From contig NZ_CP019436.1 of assembly GCF_002201895.1 (NCBI RefSeq), positions 915,619 to 979,618 on the forward strand: a stretch of 64,000 bases of DNA, written 5' to 3'. Both the position numbers and the translations under genes were made by a program. The DNA comes from Methanopyrus sp. SNP6 (lineage in GTDB: Archaea; JAADCQ01; Methanopyri; Methanopyrales; Methanopyraceae). The notes under the pieces are model-generated. The model searched no databases, was not told where the DNA came from, and saw nothing but the letters and a program-made list of their open reading frames with translations. Of the stretch, positions 27,618 through 36,414 are shown in pieces. The first letter of the stretch is position 1, and each line of letters opens with the position of its first letter.

Positions 27618-27899
27618 ATGGCTGAGGAGGAGAACGTCGTGTACGTCGGCAGCAAGCCCGTCATGAACTATGTTCTAGCCTGCATCACGCAGTTCAATGA
27701 AGGAGCCAACGAGGTCCGAATCAAGGCTCGTGGTCGTGCCATCAGCCGTGCGGTCGACGTCGCTGAGATCGTCAGGAACCGCTTCATGCCGGAGGTCGAA
27801 GTCAAGGACATCAAAATCGGTACCGAAGAACTCGAAACGGAGGAAGGAGATACCGTCAACGTGTCCACGATAGAGATAGTACTCGAGAAGCCTGTGTAA
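27618..27899 (+). CDS. albA: Alba DNA/RNA-binding chromatin protein
   Basis: Alba is an abundant archaeal dimeric DNA- and RNA-binding protein. The 93-residue product begins after a short leader with [20 protein letters not shown], the signature with the conserved lysine (often acetylated in others), and continues with [18 protein letters not shown] and a beta-rich end. ATG at 27618 has a GGGGGT tract upstream; the open frame to 27321 is not used. It ends against a T run and faces the large secreted-protein gene. Confidence 0.95.
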
Positions 27900-30260
27900 A
27901 CCGGTTTTTTGGTCACCATCCTCGCTCGTCCTCCTGATTCTCACCCGAATCGGAAACGGAATCGGGAACGTCACCCCGCGATAATCCTTGGAACTTCCCT
28001 GGCCTTCCACTCCGAGCCGCGGAGGGACATACCCTACAACTCCCTGCTCCCTCCTCATTATTGGTACACTAATCGTAGTGGCGTTAACTTCACCCATCAG
28101 CCTACCTAAAGAGTCCGAGAAAGATGCTTCTACAACGTAAACCCCACTCTCCGTCAACTTCACCCACACGTCCACGTACAGTAACCTGTGACCTTCAAAG
28201 TGAACTTCTACCTTCTCCACGTTACCACTAACCACCGGATTACTTTGTCCCGATAGATCGACGAGGGCGCTTCCAACTACCTCGTTCAGTCTCCTCACTA
28301 CCACTGTTAGGTATAAACCCATCCTAGTCGTTATGAGGTCGTAATCCGTGTTCACGCGAATTCGGAAGACGATCTCGTCCGCTCTTTTCGTTGCCTGACC
28401 AGGAGGTAGATTTAGTGTCGTTTTAATCATCCTGTACCTCATCGGTATGACCAACTGATATCCTCCGATGGAATCCTGAATGATCGTACTGGAATATACC
28501 ACGATTGGAACTGATGGCATCACGAATGTTCCCTGTTCGGTTTCGTATATTACGGCGTTTACGCTACCGACACACCCTCCTACCTCTGAACCTGGACAAG
28601 TAATACTCTTGCTAGTTGTCACGACTACAGCCGATTTAATTTTGTTAGAAGCTACCGTCAGGGTCGAAGCCCAGGGTTCCCACAGTTTCACATCACTGAA
28701 CTCGTCCCCTGGTAACGATATGTGAGGTACTAACTTAGGGTCCTGAGCCCTACCGTCCGTGGTTCCGAATACCCACAAGACCTCGTTGACGGTCTTCCCT
28801 TCTTCCTGCTTCTCTCTTTCCTGTTTTTTCTGTACTACCTTTTTCGACACCGCGAGCACGCACGGCGTCGCGTACGTCTTCTCTTTCTCCCCTTCACTGG
28901 CCACCTGGATCCTGGCCACCGGAATCGGGAACGACCTGATGCCCTCCTTCTTACTGAGGACGTCCAACCAGAAAATCGCTATAGAAGGTTTAGAATTCTT
29001 CAGAACGCCGATACTAATCAACGATATCGGCGTGCAACCCATAGGAACGATGGCTGCGGGTTTGTTTTTAATCATAACTCGAACTTCCGGTCTGTCACCT
29101 ATCTCCAGGACCGCGGGTTGACACCAGACGACTTCACCGTCGACCTTTACCTCACCCGTGGGTGGTGGGTACAATAACTCTTTAAATTGTGACGCTGGGT
29201 CCCTACCGTCCTTCCATACCGTTAGGAATACCACCGTTCCGTCCTTCAAGACGACGTGAGAAATCAATAGGTTCTCAATCGGAGGAGAGCAACTCATGTC
29301 CGACAGTCTCGTCCAGACCATCGGTAAGTAAGTATCATCGGCGGATGAGTAACCCAAAATCGACAGGTAAACTCCACATTCCTTCCACTGCTCCGCGTAC
29401 GCCACTGCGACCCATTTTGCCTCTACCTTTCGGTTCCCGAGTTGATACTCGTAGTACTCGGGAAGGACGTCGACGTTAAACGTGGTTACGTGCTGGAAAT
29501 CGTTGATAATAGAGTTGGAGGTTACTTCTATTCTGTCGTTATCCGGATCCACTCGAACTAGGGCGGAGTAAAGGTCAGAACCGTATTCCTCGACAGGTTT
29601 CTTCAAGTTCTCCACCGTGTATATTACCAGGAACAGAACTCTCTCCACGCTGCCGTTCTTCCCGTACTCGTAGCCTACGTGTAATACTCGGACTCGGCTG
29701 ACCTTTCCTTGTGCCGGTATAACCCTCCTATCTCCATCCTTCATCTCCGGAACGTACAAGACTTCCTCTTTCTCTTCCTTTTTGAATCTTAGGTATTCCT
29801 TGAACGATAGGTGCAGTGTGTGTAGGAAGACCCCGTTTCCATCCGGTCCGGCTAAGAGTACGATTCCTTCTTTTCCTCCTTTTATTGTTGCGTAAGCTGT
29901 GTCGGTTGGTTTCTCTTGTATTGACATCAGCTTGAGTGCCCAGCCGTTCCAGTTCACGATCCATATGTCTGATGACTCTTGTGATGATCTCGTCACTACG
30001 AGTACGCCCTCCGCCTCTATCCCTGGTTGTAGTTGTACCTTCGTTCCCGTCGTGATCTCACACGACGCGCAGTACTCCCCATCTAGCTTGACGTCCCCTG
30101 GGGTGAAAGCGTCGTAATGCGGGTAGTAATCAGAGAACATCGCCTTCAGATCTTCTCTCAGTTCCTCGTATGGATCACCTTGAAGTTTCGACGAGGTCGC
30201 GGTAGCGGGTGCGGTCACGGCAAAAAACATTATAAGTAAGACCTGGGCGGTGTGACGCAC
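27675..30260 (-). CDS. Large secreted protein, 861-aa frame with probable 3' frameshift
   Basis: The product has a Sec signal peptide (basic MRHTAQ, hydrophobic [16 protein letters not shown]) from GTG 30260 and about 750 residues of beta-rich extracellular sequence without recognised domains. The final 100 codons or so of the frame run antisense through alba. A one-base shift at the c4 run 27974-27977 would instead end the protein at a TGA at 27915-27913, 14 bases from the alba stop, with an acidic tail. The gene probably ended there. The start is divergent from the CODH operon. Function unknown; surface or envelope protein likely. Confidence 0.65.
27905..27910 (+). terminator. Oligo-T terminator after alba
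   Basis: Six T residues begin six bases after the alba stop codon, in otherwise GC-rich DNA. This is the usual form of an archaeal intrinsic terminator. Confidence 0.5.
30229..30236 (+). promoter_or_regulatory. TATA box of the CODH/ACS operon
   Basis: The sequence attataag preceded by the purine-rich gcaaaaaac (BRE-like) lies 82-89 bases before the cdhA start. A start site near 30258-30262 would give a leader of about 55-60 bases containing the palindrome at 30273. The box lies within the signal-peptide codons of the divergent gene. Confidence 0.5.
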
Positions 30261-30317: not shown

Positions 30318-32597
30318 ATGCCCCCGTTCGAGCTCGAGTTCGATGGGTTGAAGGTTCAGATAGGTTCTGTGGAAGGTTTCGAACCCAGGGGAGAGGGACC
30401 GTTACCGTGTCCCACTGTCTCGGATCTCGCTGATTGGGATAGAAAACTTTTCGCCCGGTATCGAGTGGTGTCGTTTCCCGTATGCGATATGTGTTGTATG
30501 TGCACGTACGGCCGTTGCAACTTATCAGAGGGTAGGCGGGGTGCTTGCGGGATAGGCATCCGCTCCAACACGGCCCGATTCACCGCGCTCAAGGCCTGCA
30601 TCGGTGCGGCTTGCCACACGGCCCACGCACGCCACCTCGTCGAGTATATCCTAAAAAAGTTCGGTGACATGGAGATCGATCTGGGCCCCGAGATCGACGT
30701 TGTAGCCCCGATATTCGAGACGATCGTGGGTTTCAGGCCGAAGACGGTCTCTGACCTCGAGAAGGGGCTCGAGTACATCGAGCGCGAGCTCGCTAAGGTT
30801 CTATCTTCCGTACACATGGGTCAGGAGATGGACCCTCACGATTACGAGTCCAAGTCCCTCCACGCCGGGATGATCGACAACCTCGCGCTCGAGATAGCCG
30901 ACGTGGCGCAGATCACTGCTTTCGACATGCCTAAGGGCGAGGCGCCCCTTGTGGAGTTCGGTCCGTTCGCGGCGGATGACTCCAAACCATGTATACTGTT
31001 AATAGGTCACAACGTGGCCCCCGGTACCGAGGTCCTCGATTACCTGGAAGATCGCGGTCTCGACGAGGAGGTCGAGGTTCTCGGGATCTGCTGTACGGCT
31101 TGGGACGTCAGCCGTGTAGACGATCGATCGAAGGTGATCGGGCCCCTGTCGAGACAGCTCCACTACGTGAGGATGGGTATCGCGGATGTGATCGTGCTCG
31201 ATGAACAGTGCATCCGCGCGGATATCGTGGAGGAGGCCAATGAGGTCGGATCTAGAGTCATCGCGACGCGAGATCTGGTGATGGCCGGACTGCCGGACGT
31301 CACGGACGAACCCACGGAGAAGATCGTCGAGAAGATGGTTTCCGGAGAGTGGATGGGAGTCTTCATCGAGGATCTGGAGAAGGCCGCAGAAGTCGCTGTT
31401 GAGGTCGCGATAAGGGTCCACGAGCGGCGGAAGAAGGAAATCCCACAGCCCGATCCGAGGAGACTCCAGAAGGAGGCGGAGCGCTGTTTGGGATGCGGCG
31501 ACTGTGAACGGGTGTGCCCGAACGACTTACCGATCGTCGAGTCCATGGAGAGGGCGGCGAACGGCGACTTGGATGGACTTGCCGAACTGTTCGACCGGTG
31601 CGTGGGTTGTGCCCGGTGTGAGTCCGAATGTCCGTCGAAGATCCGCATCATGAACATGATCGAGGACGCCTGGAGACTGAGGACCAAAGAGGAGAAATAT
31701 AAAGTACGCACCGGCCGAGGTCCGATCAAGGATGTCGAGATACGACAGGTCGGAGGTCCCATCGTAATGGGTGATATTCCCGGTGTAGTCGCTTTTGTAG
31801 CGTGTCCGAACTATCCCGACGATGTGAAGCAAGTGGGTAAAATGGTGGAAGAACTTCTGGAACGAAATTATATCGTACTAACTTCGGGCTGCGCAGCAAT
31901 GTCACTTAGTATGTACACGGATGAGGATGGTAAGACCTTGTATGAAAAGTACGAAGATAAGTTCGACGCGGGTTGTCTCGTGAACACCGGTCCTTGTGTC
32001 TCGAACGCTCATATACTCGGTGCGTGTATTAAGATCGCTGCTATTTTCGCGAAAAAGCCACTTAAAGGGAACTTCAAGGAAATCGCCGATTACATCCTCA
32101 ACAGGGTCGGAGCTTGTGGGGTACTGTGGGGCGCGATGAGCCAGAAGGCCCTCGCGATATCCACGGGTTTCACGCGATGGGGTATTCCAATAGTTTACGG
32201 TCCGGCTGGTCTCAAGTATCAAACATTGTACATCGGTGACCTCGATGGGGATTGGACGGTGTACGATGCACGCACCGGTGAGGAGTGCGAGGAGTATTGT
32301 CCCATCCACCTGAAGTACGCGGCGGAAGACTGGAGGGAGGCGCTAGTTCAGGCGGTGAAACTCTGCATCCGTCCCAACGATACCCCACAGGGACGACAGA
32401 CTAAGCTTCAAAACTACATCGAGTTGTACAAGGAGTTCTACAACGAGCTCCCACCGGACCTTCCACTGTACGTCCGCGACAAGAACGACGTTCCGATCAC
32501 TTTGCGCGACGAGGTGATGGAGTACCTGAATGAGGTCGGTTGGAAGCCAAGGAAGGGTATCGCCGAACCCTCGCTGGGAGAGAACGTGCGGGGTTAA
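30318..32597 (+). CDS. cdhA: CO dehydrogenase/acetyl-CoA synthase alpha subunit (CdhA)
   Basis: CdhA interconverts CO2 and CO at the Ni-Fe-S C-cluster. From ATG 30318 the 759-residue protein has N-terminal cluster cysteines C56, C59, C60, C62, C67 and C77. C-cluster candidates are H182, C258 or C259, C298, C525, C560 and C600. Two ferredoxin-type 4Fe-4S motifs lie at C390-C400 (CxxCxxCxxxCP) and C428-C438. All features match archaeal CdhA. The ATG is preceded by ggtaggg; the frame upstream to 30252 is unused. It opens the operon cdhA-cdhB-paralogue-cdhC-cooC-cdhD-cdhE. Confidence 0.96.
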   Translation: MPPFELEFDGLKVQIGSVEGFEPRGEGPLPCPTVSDLADWDRKLFARYRVVSFPVCDMCCMCTYGRCNLSEGRRGACGIGIRSNTARFTALKACIGAACHTAHARHLVEYILKKFGDMEIDLGPEIDVVAPIFETIVGFRPKTVSDLEKGLEYIERELAKVLSSVHMGQEMDPHDYESKSLHAGMIDNLALEIADVAQITAFDMPKGEAPLVEFGPFAADDSKPCILLIGHNVAPGTEVLDYLEDRGLDEEVEVLGICCTAWDVSRVDDRSKVIGPLSRQLHYVRMGIADVIVLDEQCIRADIVEEANEVGSRVIATRDLVMAGLPDVTDEPTEKIVEKMVSGEWMGVFIEDLEKAAEVAVEVAIRVHERRKKEIPQPDPRRLQKEAERCLGCGDCERVCPNDLPIVESMERAANGDLDGLAELFDRCVGCARCESECPSKIRIMNMIEDAWRLRTKEEKYKVRTGRGPIKDVEIRQVGGPIVMGDIPGVVAFVACPNYPDDVKQVGKMVEELLERNYIVLTSGCAAMSLSMYTDEDGKTLYEKYEDKFDAGCLVNTGPCVSNAHILGACIKIAAIFAKKPLKGNFKEIADYILNRVGACGVLWGAMSQKALAISTGFTRWGIPIVYGPAGLKYQTLYIGDLDGDWTVYDARTGEECEEYCPIHLKYAAEDWREALVQAVKLCIRPNDTPQGRQTKLQNYIELYKEFYNELPPDLPLYVRDKNDVPITLRDEVMEYLNEVGWKPRKGIAEPSLGENVRG

Positions 32598-32602
32598 GCC
32601 CG

Positions 32603-33082
32603 TTGTCGCTACCGAAGGATCCCACGCTGATTTACACGGACAAGGCCAAGGTAGCCCGAGCTCCGGTGCTCAAGATGGTGTTCCGTCGCGCTAACGATCC
32701 GCTGATGATCGTCGGCCCGAAGGCTGTGGAGGACGAGGAGTGGCGGGAACTCCTGGTGAAGCTGCGTGAGGAGTTCAGGATGAGCGCCGTCTGCACTGCC
32801 CCGTACGAGGGCAGTGACCTGGGTCGCAAGATGGGTATTGTCGAGGTGGCGGCCTTGCTCCAATGGGACGCTCCAATACTCGGAGTTCACCCAGATCTCG
32901 TCGTGTTCACTGGGTCCCGTACCGACGTAACCGACCGAGTACTCCAGGGACTCCGTCACGCGCGACCTGACCTGGTGAAAGTGTCGTTGAATCCCGAGTA
33001 CTGCCCCAGCGCGGACTACTCGTTGCCTACAATGAAAAGGGAGCAGTTCCTCCAAGAGCTGAGCTCTTTGGCGGGTGTTTAA
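32603..33082 (+). CDS. cdhB: CODH/ACS epsilon subunit (CdhB)
   Basis: The epsilon subunit binds CdhA in the alpha2-epsilon2 complex, with a DHS-like (deoxyhypusine-synthase-like) Rossmann domain thought to support electron transfer. The 159-residue product has the expected opening with AKVARAPVLKMVFRRANDP, a MIVGPKAV segment and a C-terminal PEYCPSADYSLPTM end. TTG at 32603 starts it, five bases after the cdhA stop, with gggg upstream. Length fits the family of about 170 residues. Confidence 0.92.
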   Translation: MSLPKDPTLIYTDKAKVARAPVLKMVFRRANDPLMIVGPKAVEDEEWRELLVKLREEFRMSAVCTAPYEGSDLGRKMGIVEVAALLQWDAPILGVHPDLVVFTGSRTDVTDRVLQGLRHARPDLVKVSLNPEYCPSADYSLPTMKREQFLQELSSLAGV

Positions 33083-33095
33083 TCATAGTAAGGGC

Positions 33096-35009
33096 GTGGT
33101 CAGGTTGGACGTGAAATGGGAGGACGTTGAAGTCGAAATAGGGGAGCTGGTGGTTGAGTGGGGCTCCGAAAGTGAGGTGGAGGGACCGACTCGCCGCGAG
33201 TTGCTTCCGTGGGACAGGACGTTGACGTCGGTCTACGATTTGACCGTGGTCCCAGGTGATTCGGAAGAGAAACGGCGAGAAGTAGCTCGCACGGTGGTAA
33301 CGCTATGTTGCGAGGGTACGGCGGGGCTAATCTCCACGGCCCGACTCGCGGTAGAACTGCTGCGTCAAACTGGAGAGCCCTTGGATCCCGGGTTCGGTGC
33401 GGAGACGCCGCTCCCTCTATACGAGACGCTGCTCGGGAGTCCTCCCGAGTGCACAGATGACCTCGAAGTCGGACTGTCCTACGCGGGGTTGGAGCTGGCT
33501 TCCTCGGTCTCGGAGCTCCTGCGGTCGCACTCCATAGAAGGTTACGAGTCCGTGGCTATGCACGCCGGCGCGATCGGTCTCCTCGCGATGGAAATAGCCG
33601 ATGCGGCCCTCTCCACGCTGATGAAGGTCCCGGAATCGGAGGGAGTGTTCGAGATCGGGACGGATGATCTACCGGAACGTCCTACGGTGTTGTTGGTCGG
33701 TCATCTACCGCTCCTGGGCCATATCATCAACGAAGAGTTAGGAACGCTCGCGAGACAGGTGGGGATCGTCGGATTAACACACACCGCGTGGCCCAACTGC
33801 GAGGACCACGTCAGGGTCGTAGGACTACTGTCCATGTACTACGAATACGTCTCTTCCGGGTTCGCGGATGTGGTGGTAGTCGACGGGACGTGCACGGGAG
33901 AAGACGTGATCGAGGCGGTATGCGAGGGCGGATCCAAGCTCGTCGCCACCGTCGGGGCTCGCGTAGCTGACCTACCCGACGTCACCGACTACCCTGTTGA
34001 GAAGGCTGTCGAGGTCCTCGTTACCGACGAGGACGCTGTTTACGTGGAGGAACCTCTCAAGGCCGTGGAAATCGCCGCGTGGACGGCTCTTCGAGTCTGT
34101 GGATCACGCGATCGGAAGGGATACCCTCGGAAGGTTTTCCGGATCGGCCCACCGACCCGCCTCACGGATGTGGTGATCCGAAACGTAGGTGTTCCGGTAG
34201 TTTCAGGCAACATCCCGGGGATAGTCGTCCTAGTGTCCTGTCCCGAGAAGTCCGAGGACGTCGAAGAACCCGCCAAGATCGCCGAGGCCCTCCTAGAGCG
34301 CGGATACTTGGTGCTAGTCCCGGGTTGTTTAGCCGTTGCACTGGGCTCATACTTGGACGAAGAAGGTAAGACGTTGTACGAACGGTACCCGAATACGCTC
34401 CTCAATACCGGACCCTGTACGTCCACCGCGCATTTGGTCGGGGCCTGCGTCCGCGTGGGTGTGATCTTCGGTAGGCTTCCCATCAGGGGAGAACCCGTAC
34501 GGGTCGCCGATTACGTACTCAATCGAGTCGGGGCCTGCGTGATAGCCTGGGGAAATGAGTACCCGGAACACTTGGTTTCGGCGGCCTACGGGATCACTCG
34601 GTGGGGTATCCCAGTAATACTGGGTCCCGACCCGGAGGCGGGCTCGTTGTTGATCGAGAAGGACCCGAAGATCGTCGACGCTCGTTCGGGAGAGGAAGTA
34701 GAGGATCCTACCCCGAGACATCTGAGGTGCGTGGTATCGAATTGGAAGGAGGCGGCTGTCACCGCGGCTCGGCTGTGTATGCGTCCCAACGACACCCCGG
34801 AAGGTCGCCAGAACAAGGTCGAATCGTACGTGGAGTTGTACCGGGAGCTTTACGGAAAACTCCCGCCCGACCTCGACCTGATCATTCGGGACGAGAGCGA
34901 CATCCCGGTGACGCTCAGGTCCGAAATACGGGAGCTGCTGGAGAAGACCGGATGGGCACCTAGATCGCGCGCATCCGATCCTACCTTACTGTCCGAGGGG
35001 GGTGAGTGA
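33096..35009 (+). CDS. Degenerate CdhA paralogue in the CODH/ACS operon
   Basis: This protein of about 640 residues aligns with CdhA over its whole length but lacks key cofactor parts. The N-terminal cysteine cluster is replaced by sequence with a lone CC. The whole double ferredoxin module is deleted, with RVCGSRDRKGYPRK standing in its place. The C-cluster Cys in CdhA's GICCTAW is THT here. His in AMHAG and four C-cluster cysteines (VDGTC, VPGC, TGPC, VGAC) remain. The frame is intact and overlaps cdhC, so it is expressed, not decayed. Start uncertain (GTG 33075, GTG 33096, TTG 33105). It may be a structural or maturation partner. Confidence 0.85.
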   Translation: MVRLDVKWEDVEVEIGELVVEWGSESEVEGPTRRELLPWDRTLTSVYDLTVVPGDSEEKRREVARTVVTLCCEGTAGLISTARLAVELLRQTGEPLDPGFGAETPLPLYETLLGSPPECTDDLEVGLSYAGLELASSVSELLRSHSIEGYESVAMHAGAIGLLAMEIADAALSTLMKVPESEGVFEIGTDDLPERPTVLLVGHLPLLGHIINEELGTLARQVGIVGLTHTAWPNCEDHVRVVGLLSMYYEYVSSGFADVVVVDGTCTGEDVIEAVCEGGSKLVATVGARVADLPDVTDYPVEKAVEVLVTDEDAVYVEEPLKAVEIAAWTALRVCGSRDRKGYPRKVFRIGPPTRLTDVVIRNVGVPVVSGNIPGIVVLVSCPEKSEDVEEPAKIAEALLERGYLVLVPGCLAVALGSYLDEEGKTLYERYPNTLLNTGPCTSTAHLVGACVRVGVIFGRLPIRGEPVRVADYVLNRVGACVIAWGNEYPEHLVSAAYGITRWGIPVILGPDPEAGSLLIEKDPKIVDARSGEEVEDPTPRHLRCVVSNWKEAAVTAARLCMRPNDTPEGRQNKVESYVELYRELYGKLPPDLDLIIRDESDIPVTLRSEIRELLEKTGWAPRSRASDPTLLSEGGE

Positions 35010-36414
35010 GGAGTTGACGGGTCTTGCGGATCTGCCCGTGGACGTGAGCCCGAGGCACGAGGGCGAGCGGATACGAAGCGGTGACATGTACGTCGAGTTG
35101 GCGGGGCCGAAGGGCTTAGGCGCTGAACTGTTCAAGGTTGTGGACCCGGACGAGATCGAGCCGGACAAGGTGGAAGTAATCGGCCCAGACATCGACGAGA
35201 TGGAGGAAGGAGAGCGATACCCGTTCGCCATTTACGTGAAAGCCGCCGGTGAGGAGCTCGAGGAGGACGTGGAAGGTGTACTAGAGCGACGTATCCACGA
35301 GTTCTGCAACTACGTTGAAGGTTTCATGCACCTGAATCAGCGAGACCAGATTTGGTGTAGGGTCTCGAAGGACGCCGTGGAGAAGGGGTTCCGATTGGAG
35401 CACCTCGGCATCGTGCTCCGGGAGCTGTACAAGGAGGAGTTCGGCAACGTCATCGACTCGGTGGAAGTCACGATAATTACGGACGAGGAGAATGTGGAGG
35501 AGTTCATAGAGTACGCCAGGGAAATCTATCAGAAGCGCGACGAACGTGCGAAGGGACTCTCGGAGGAGGACGTCGACGAGTTCTACGTGTGCCTGATGTG
35601 TCAGTCCTTCGCGCCGACTCACGTGTGTGTAATAACTCCGGACCGACCGAGCCTCTGTGGCTCGATCACCTGGCACGACGCTAAGGCGGCCTACAAGATC
35701 GATCCTGAGGGCCCTATATTCCCGATCGAGAAGGGAGAGTGTCTTGACCCCGAAGCCGGCGAGTACGAGGGTGTGAACAAGGCCTTTCAGGAACACTCTC
35801 AGGGTGCCGTCGAGCGAGTGTTCTTGCACTCCTGTCTCGAGTACCCGCATACGAGCTGCGGCTGCTTCCAGGCTGTCGTGTTCTACATCCCCGAGGTAGA
35901 CGGGTTCGGAATCGTTGACCGTGAGTACCCGGGTGAGACCCCGATCGGGCTCCCGTTCTCGACCATGGCGGGTGAGGCCAGCGGCGGTGAGCAGCAGCCG
36001 GGTTTCGTTGGCGTAAGCTACGGTTACATGGAGTCTGATAAGTTCCTACAGTACGACGGCGGCTGGGAGCGCGTGGTTTGGATTCCTAAGGCGCTGAAAG
36101 AACGCATGAAGCACGCCATCCCCGACGAGCTGTACGACAAGATAGCCACCGAGGAGGACGCGACCACTGTGGAGGAGCTCCGGGAGTTCCTCGAGAAAGT
36201 CGAACACCCGGTCGTCGAGCGCTGGGCCGAAGAGGAAGAAGAGGAGGAGAAGGTTCCGGAGGAGGAAGCACCAGCCGAAGAACCGACGATGGAGGTGGAG
36301 GAGCTTCCGATCGCGCCCGGTGGAGGTCTGAACGTGAAAATCGTGCTGAAAAACGCCAAGATTTACGCGGAGAAGGTCATCATCAAGCGCGCCGATCGGG
36401 AAGATGAGAGTTGA
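35002..36414 (+). CDS. cdhC: Acetyl-CoA synthase beta subunit (CdhC)
   Basis: CdhC assembles acetyl-CoA from a methyl group, CO and CoA at the Ni-Ni-4Fe4S A-cluster. Cluster ligands are seen in CLMCQSFAPTHVC (C197, C200, C209), C219 and the SCGCF motif (C286, C288). The protein has 470 residues, as in archaea, which lack the bacterial N-terminal domain. A highly acidic linker of about 35 residues (near 410-445) precedes a small basic C-terminal beta segment. GTG 35002 or TTG 35014 may start it; both follow a gggggg tract and overlap the paralogue. Confidence 0.95.
   Translation: MSEELTGLADLPVDVSPRHEGERIRSGDMYVELAGPKGLGAELFKVVDPDEIEPDKVEVIGPDIDEMEEGERYPFAIYVKAAGEELEEDVEGVLERRIHEFCNYVEGFMHLNQRDQIWCRVSKDAVEKGFRLEHLGIVLRELYKEEFGNVIDSVEVTIITDEENVEEFIEYAREIYQKRDERAKGLSEEDVDEFYVCLMCQSFAPTHVCVITPDRPSLCGSITWHDAKAAYKIDPEGPIFPIEKGECLDPEAGEYEGVNKAFQEHSQGAVERVFLHSCLEYPHTSCGCFQAVVFYIPEVDGFGIVDREYPGETPIGLPFSTMAGEASGGEQQPGFVGVSYGYMESDKFLQYDGGWERVVWIPKALKERMKHAIPDELYDKIATEEDATTVEELREFLEKVEHPVVERWAEEEEEEEKVPEEEAPAEEPTMEVEELPIAPGGGLNVKIVLKNAKIYAEKVIIKRADREDES

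Follow-up and report, generated by a model that had tools for sequence, protein, structure and literature searches.

A CdhA paralogue lacking electron-transfer ligands in the CODH/ACS operon of Methanopyrus, a possible separate partner of ACS

The CODH/ACS locus

The window analysed here, a stretch of 64,000 nucleotides of Methanopyrus sp. SNP6, comes from a genome represented by a single contig of 1.42 Mb and contains a CODH/ACS operon with the gene order cdhA, cdhB, X, cdhC, cooC, cdhD, cdhE, where X denotes the gene under study and cooC is the gene for a maturation ATPase. The first four genes, in the coordinates of the window, are the following.

30318..32597, + strand: cdhA, complete catalytic CODH alpha subunit, the parent family of X
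32603..33082, + strand: cdhB, epsilon subunit
33096..35009, + strand: X, CdhA paralogue of 637 aa read from GTG 33096; four orthologues 69-100% identical
35014..36414, + strand: cdhC, that is, ACS, in the short form without the A1 domain; TTG start, alternative GTG at 35002

The frame of X is open on the plus strand up to 35009, whether it is read from 33096 or from an alternative upstream GTG at 33075 that lies within cdhB. The alignment of X with CdhA (30318-32597) extends along the length of X with 42% identity, in accord with the full-length likeness claimed in the original prediction. The start of cdhC, the sole copy of this gene in the genome, is ambiguous: the 8-base overlap with X that was claimed earlier holds only if cdhC starts at GTG 35002, and is replaced by a 4-base gap with TTG 35014, which is the start position aligned in three other Methanopyrus genomes (G001-G003).

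Beside cdhA, the minus strand of the window holds a divergent 861-aa open reading frame (27675-30260) that evolves much faster than the operon: it shows 53% identity to G001, compared to 86-96% for the cdh genes, a match of no more than 71 aa in the G002 region, and no match in the G003 and G004 regions examined, which may end too early.

Distribution, selective pressure and origin of X

The conservation in other Methanopyrus genomes that had been proposed as a check was found: X is present in four of the five genomes, each time between cdhB and cdhC, and the orthologues in G001, G002 and G003 (87%, 75% and 69% identity, respectively) contain no stops, in agreement with the open frame described originally, and occupy the same place in the operon. 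The fifth genome, G004, has an intact operon without X, with a cdhB-cdhC spacing of about 30 bases. No X orthologue outside Methanopyrus was found in the collections searched: a contig scan with the single X protein produced no match, a scan with the alignment of the four X proteins matched only two known Methanopyrus MAGs, and no close X-like gene was detected among 394 archaeal genomes in a TIGR00314 search or among 36 genomes of one further phylum.

The pairwise dN/dS ratios of X, calculated by the NG86 method with several dS values above 1 (saturated), are in the range of 0.13 to 0.25, close to those of CdhB (0.12 to 0.32) and CooC, with a range of 0.06 to 0.17 for CdhA. Given these values, X is under purifying selection. 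Combined with the open frames in four species and the same operon position, the ratios sustain the original view that X is a protein under selection and not a gene in decay; neither frame disruption nor near-neutral selection in relatives, the observations that had been named as refuting, was seen. A pseudogene is rejected by the open frames and the dN/dS values, and the same evidence already contradicts the notion of a decaying duplicate or annotation artefact, which we regard as hardly credible despite the long branch of X (1.4-1.7 changes per site) and the existence of G004 without the gene.

In the phylogenetic tree, X and the Methanopyrus CdhAs are located on one side of a branch with support 100/100, and X is a descendant of a Methanopyrus CdhA. 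X is placed outside all five Methanopyrus CdhAs, with duplication after the G004 split not rejected (AU p 0.071), and the states shared between X and the CdhAs are mixed on the timing of the duplication; both a gain in the four genomes and a loss in G004 are possible.

Losses, replacements and retained ligands

Residues were compared in an alignment of the four X proteins, the five Methanopyrus CdhAs and 34 CdhAs from other archaea. The positions of X were matched to those of CODH-II through sequence motifs and the known features of CODH structures. The description of DvCODH supports this matching of positions (PMC6168284).

33252..33254, + strand: Pro53, after which the CdhA D/B-cluster Cys segment (Cys56-Cys77) is missing in the alignments
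33702..33704, + strand: His203, C-cluster Fe-u ligand His261 of CODH-II, kept; invariant in the four X
33777..33782, + strand: Thr228-His229, replacing Cys294-Cys295; T,H in 4/4 X and C,C in all CdhAs aligned there
33891..33893, + strand: Cys266, cubane ligand Cys333, kept
34128..34148, + strand: junction without the CdhA E/F-cluster insert (~84 residues, two ferredoxin motifs) in the alignments
34239..34241, + strand: Cys382, cubane ligand Cys446, kept
34326..34328, + strand: Cys411, cubane ligand Cys476, kept
34416..34418, + strand: Cys441, Ni ligand Cys526, kept
34569..34571, + strand: His492, replacing catalytic Lys563; H in 4/4 X and K in all CdhAs aligned there

The electron-transfer part of CdhA is missing from X. 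N-terminal losses of 12 and 9 residues removed the D/B-cluster cysteines in all four proteins, leaving X without the four-Cys B cluster required for electron transfer, and the E/F [4Fe-4S] insert of archaeal CdhA is absent in all four as well; these two losses correspond to the N-terminal iron-sulfur cysteines and both ferredoxin motifs that were reported as gone in the first reading. The only Pfam match of X is Prismane/CO dehydrogenase, and its score with the NCBIfam equivalog TIGR00314 is 370 bits, below the cut-off of 781.

The six C-cluster ligand positions of X are occupied by His, His (for Cys295), Cys, Cys, Cys and Cys, invariant in four species, which departs from the His and five Cys of the C-cluster by the replacement of Cys295 in 4/4 X. 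Thus, His261 and the Cys333, Cys446, Cys476 and Cys526 equivalents are retained in all four X, as predicted, and the substitution of THT for CCT is real, although it replaces two cysteines (Cys294 by Thr and Cys295 by His) and not one. Cys294 is a second-sphere Cys needed for Ni incorporation and Cys295 is a Fe-u ligand (PMC6168284). The description of X as "cofactor-stripped" is apt for the electron-transfer clusters but not for the C-cluster pocket, the ligands of which are still there. Both acid-base catalysts, His93 and Lys563, are changed, to Leu and His, respectively, in 4/4 X, and the relay residues His93/96/99 are Leu/Thr/Leu in all four; all CdhAs compared have the normal ligand, Lys and relay residues wherever aligned. 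The replacement of Lys563 and the losses of the relay His were absent from the earlier reading of the sequence.

Judging by these residues, the electron wiring and the catalytic apparatus of X are gone and the metal pocket is retained. CO dehydrogenase activity of X is very unlikely, given the Cys294 to Thr and catalytic Lys to His replacements and the loss of the proton-relay His.

The metal pocket

The C301S mutant of DvCODH (the equivalent of Cys294) is inactive and devoid of Ni, which cannot activate it, with the Fe-S cluster still present (PMC6168284). X natively has Thr, similar to Ser, at this position in all four proteins and, by analogy, a Ni-free Fe-S cluster seems to be the likeliest occupant of its pocket.

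This Thr, at a position required for Ni loading, weakens the nickel-cluster scaffold that was among the roles initially envisaged for X, C301S being Ni-free and not activatable (PMC6168284). A broader version of this idea, in which X is an assembly factor or metal store, a dead paralogue standing to CdhA as NifEN does to NifDK, on which the precursor of a C- or A-cluster would be assembled, or Ni/Fe-S kept, until it passes to CdhA or CdhC, could account for the retention of the pocket ligands along with the loss of catalysis and electron wiring, and for the presence of cooC in the same operon; the same Thr speaks against it, as does the production of ACDS without X in G004 and the other archaea compared, so that we consider it unlikely.

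Alternatively, X could be a metalloenzyme that carries out a novel reaction at an altered cluster, in which two His bind Fe-u and four Cys bind the cubane; its electrons would then come from another protein. Coordinating residues occupy all six ligand positions in all four X, and His229 and His492 are conserved, specific replacements. However, X has neither an electron-transfer cluster nor a proton relay and has lost the counterparts of the residues on which Ni insertion and acid-base catalysis depend, making this alternative distinctly improbable.

The ACS-facing half and the predicted structure

In Methanosarcina thermophila, ACS has no A1 domain and docks onto CdhA at Rossmann fold 2 and the C-terminal extension; the MetCODH residues Arg500, Leu504, Val507 and Phe601 either touch the A-cluster or form part of its CO alcove (PMC11474084). 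The corresponding features of X are the following.

34155..34220, + strand: helix alpha-A, residues 354-375, in which Arg362, Val366 and Val369 correspond to MetCODH Arg500, Leu504 and Val507 (PMC11474084)
34467..34469, + strand: Phe458, MetCODH Phe601 of the CO alcove in helix alpha-B, kept
34641..35006, + strand: C-terminal extension, borders approximate, with 49% identity to CdhA; the part that binds ACS in Methanosarcina (PMC11474084)

The four positions are R, V, V and F in X, invariant in 4/4, with the residue at 504 thus being hydrophobic and the helix alpha-A positions 500, 504 and 507 being those of ACS A-cluster contact and the CO alcove; this retention is permissive rather than diagnostic, given that R, V and F at 500, 507 and 601 are also invariant in all CdhAs compared and could reflect the fold alone. 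In the C-terminal extension, X and Methanopyrus CdhA are more similar (identity 0.49) than CdhA and the outgroup CdhAs (0.42).

X keeps 92 of the 151 near-invariant CdhA positions. In two enrichment tests, both small, post hoc and uncorrected, these proved more frequent in the half formed by Rossmann fold 2 and the C-terminal extension than in the N-terminal half (54/77 vs 38/74; p 0.014), and, among the near-invariant Cys, His and Lys of CdhA, X retained five of the six C-cluster ligands compared to three of the 13 others (Fisher p 0.024). The tests speak for a protein in which the cluster pocket and the half facing ACS have been preserved, with the reservation that Rossmann fold 2 is the slowest-evolving part of CdhA too. 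Within X, conservation is lowest in the N-terminal helical domain and highest in helix alpha-B.

The AF2 (AlphaFold2) model of X obtained with CdhA rows in the alignment has a pLDDT of 86.7, and its best PDB matches are CdhA chains (TM 0.82-0.85); with the four X rows alone, the pLDDT is 41.6 and the model is unusable. The prediction thus borrows from the CdhA rows and is no independent proof of the fold of X. A greater similarity to ACS A1 in X than in CdhA, hinted at by the PDB matches 6yua and 6ytt, was not supported once more CdhAs were scored: with the ACS A1 profile NF040764, X scores 53-58 bits and the CdhAs 44-64 bits.

A paralogue with the opposite losses in another archaeal family

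In an archaeal family designated f73 (genomes G181, G285 and G351), a second CdhA-like gene is present in the cdhD-cdhE-cdhA region:

L072, 4943-7672, - strand: second CdhA-like gene
L073, 4351-6285, + strand: second CdhA-like gene
L074, 13893-16520, - strand: second CdhA-like gene

The B-cluster Cys are kept in all three proteins and the E/F motifs in two of them; none of the six C-cluster ligands remains, and Lys563 is lost together with the Val and Phe of the alcove. The dN/dS is about 0.25. By its residues, this paralogue keeps the wiring and discards the active site, the opposite of X, and it may contribute nothing but electron transfer as one partner in a heterodimeric CODH. In G285, both CdhA (L073, 6623-9130, + strand) and the degenerate paralogue (L073, 4351-6285, + strand) are shorter in the ferredoxin insert than those of G181 and G351, and the insert sequences of the two are similar; gene conversion or assembly collapse is possible.

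The existence of a paralogue pair with complementary losses is compatible with a role of X as a partner or negative regulator of CdhA that forms a heterodimer with CdhA or binds CdhB and thereby adjusts how much CODH dimer there is or how active it is, as are the ancestry that X shares with a homodimer-forming subunit and its location in one operon with cdhA. In CODH, the C cluster exchanges electrons with the B cluster of the partner subunit. A heterodimer with X, which has no B cluster, would cut the electron path of CdhA; furthermore, the D cluster and the N-terminal segment at the dimer interface are deleted in X, and its N-terminal helical domain is its least conserved part, all of which makes such a partnership quite unlikely.

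X as a candidate partner of CdhC

The best explanation of these observations seems to be that X is a neofunctionalised, non-catalytic CdhA. If X is a structural partner, the evidence should point to CdhC rather than CdhA, because X is best preserved in Rossmann fold 2 and the C-terminal extension, the two parts to which ACS binds in Methanosarcina (PMC11474084). Specifically, we propose, with a probability of roughly 0.4, that X, a CODH-like protein without redox function, partners or caps CdhC in a way that is functionally similar to the A1 domain of bacterial ACS. In this scenario, X would fold as the CODH core without the ferredoxin insert, hold a Ni-free Fe-S cluster or a structural metal in its pocket, and dock onto CdhC by the same face as CdhA, forming an alcove over the A-cluster. 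It would be a CODH-inactive cap or adaptor for ACS, with the job of A1 done by a separate protein that binds, protects or holds CdhC, or lengthens the CO path from CdhA to CdhC, and does not oxidise CO.

This proposal is in line with the position of X in four species, after cdhB and immediately next to cdhC, with the lack of A1 in the CdhC encoded here, and with the f73 paralogue, in which the absence of the C-cluster is accompanied by the absence of the alcove Val and Phe. On the other hand, CdhA itself is able to bind CdhC, and G004 lives without X. The assignment is tentative because every CdhA compared has the same Arg, Val and Phe, which makes these residues permissive evidence. A more specific role, that of a trans-acting A1-like subunit located on CdhC or between CdhA and CdhC, where it would lengthen or gate the channel for CO and protect the A-cluster, is doubtful.

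Comparison with known systems

X resembles CdhA (TIGR00314; PDB 3cf4, 9c0q, 8riu) in its predicted fold and has preserved the Cys/His positions of the C-cluster along with Rossmann fold 2 and the C-terminal extension. It differs from CdhA in lacking the His relay, the catalytic Lys and the ligands of the B, D, E and F clusters, and in the replacement of Cys294 with Thr and of Cys295 with His. Among the variants described by Inoue et al. (2019), the clade-A groups A-4 and A-6 are similar to X in that the cubane Cys are kept, the Fe-u ligands and acid-base residues are altered, and the genes are clustered with ACS genes (PMC6344411). Unlike X, these groups, reported only in bacteria, retain the E/F motifs (F incomplete in A-6), and their residues are D,P,C,C,C,C; Q,R in A-4 and N,S,C,C,C,C; H,L in A-6 (PMC6344411). 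Sequences with deletions at the D-, B- or C-clusters or at catalytic residues had been filtered out of the dataset of that study, and X, which carries such deletions, would thus have been excluded; "Methanopyrus" does not occur in the main text (PMC6344411). In open-access papers, we found no literature on X, on the activity of CODH-II with K563H/C295D, or on the proteomics of Methanopyrus CODH. Within the limits of this search, X is a new variant among incomplete CdhAs and the first found in an archaeal operon to lack all B, D, E and F ligands.

In nitrogenase, NifEN is a paralogous scaffold related to NifDK. NifEN shares with X the status of an operon paralogue of the enzyme, with the cluster pocket kept and catalysis lost; the differences are that X lacks the Ni-insertion Cys and has a narrow distribution, and that a scaffold role of X is putative.

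Whether archaea lost the A1 domain of ACS or bacteria acquired it when a CODH Rossmann fold was duplicated is debated, and A1 has been stated to be missing in all methanogens (PMC11474084). In the phylum of G025, which looks like Methanococcales, we observed ACS proteins that include an A1 part of the bacterial type and measure about 740-765 aa. The loci concerned are the following.

L066, 3710-6001, + strand: long ACS
L070, 3642-5936, - strand: long ACS
L067, 1656-3833, - strand and 17-1453, - strand: open reading frame of the long kind and short CdhC

Two of these long ACS score 905-1071 bits on the alpha/beta ACS models, and G064 encodes a short CdhC along with a 726-aa open reading frame of the long kind. 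Judging from these sequences, the long ACS of this phylum contradict the absence of A1 from all methanogens (PMC11474084).

With bacterial ACS A1 (e.g. 6ytt), X shares a CODH-derived Rossmann fold beside ACS that lacks redox clusters and carries the CO alcove, and both NCBIfam and the PDB yield ACS A1 matches for the Rossmann fold 2 portion of X. The difference is that A1 is fused to ACS and comprises about 310 aa, whereas X is separate, nearly as long as a full CdhA and no closer to A1 than the CdhAs. CODH/ACS is among the oldest carbon-fixing enzymes, and a conserved CdhA duplicate that sheds electron transfer and keeps the ACS-facing half would exemplify an intermediate step towards A1 in an extremely heat-loving methanogen lineage. 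As a cap, X would show that archaeal ACS can have a partner that is not a CODH. Together with the f73 paralogue, X shows that CdhA duplicates divide the jobs of the enzyme in two opposite ways. If X is a trans-acting A1-like subunit, Methanopyrus would have reinvented the fused A1 of acetogens as a separate protein with an Fe-S-bearing pocket.
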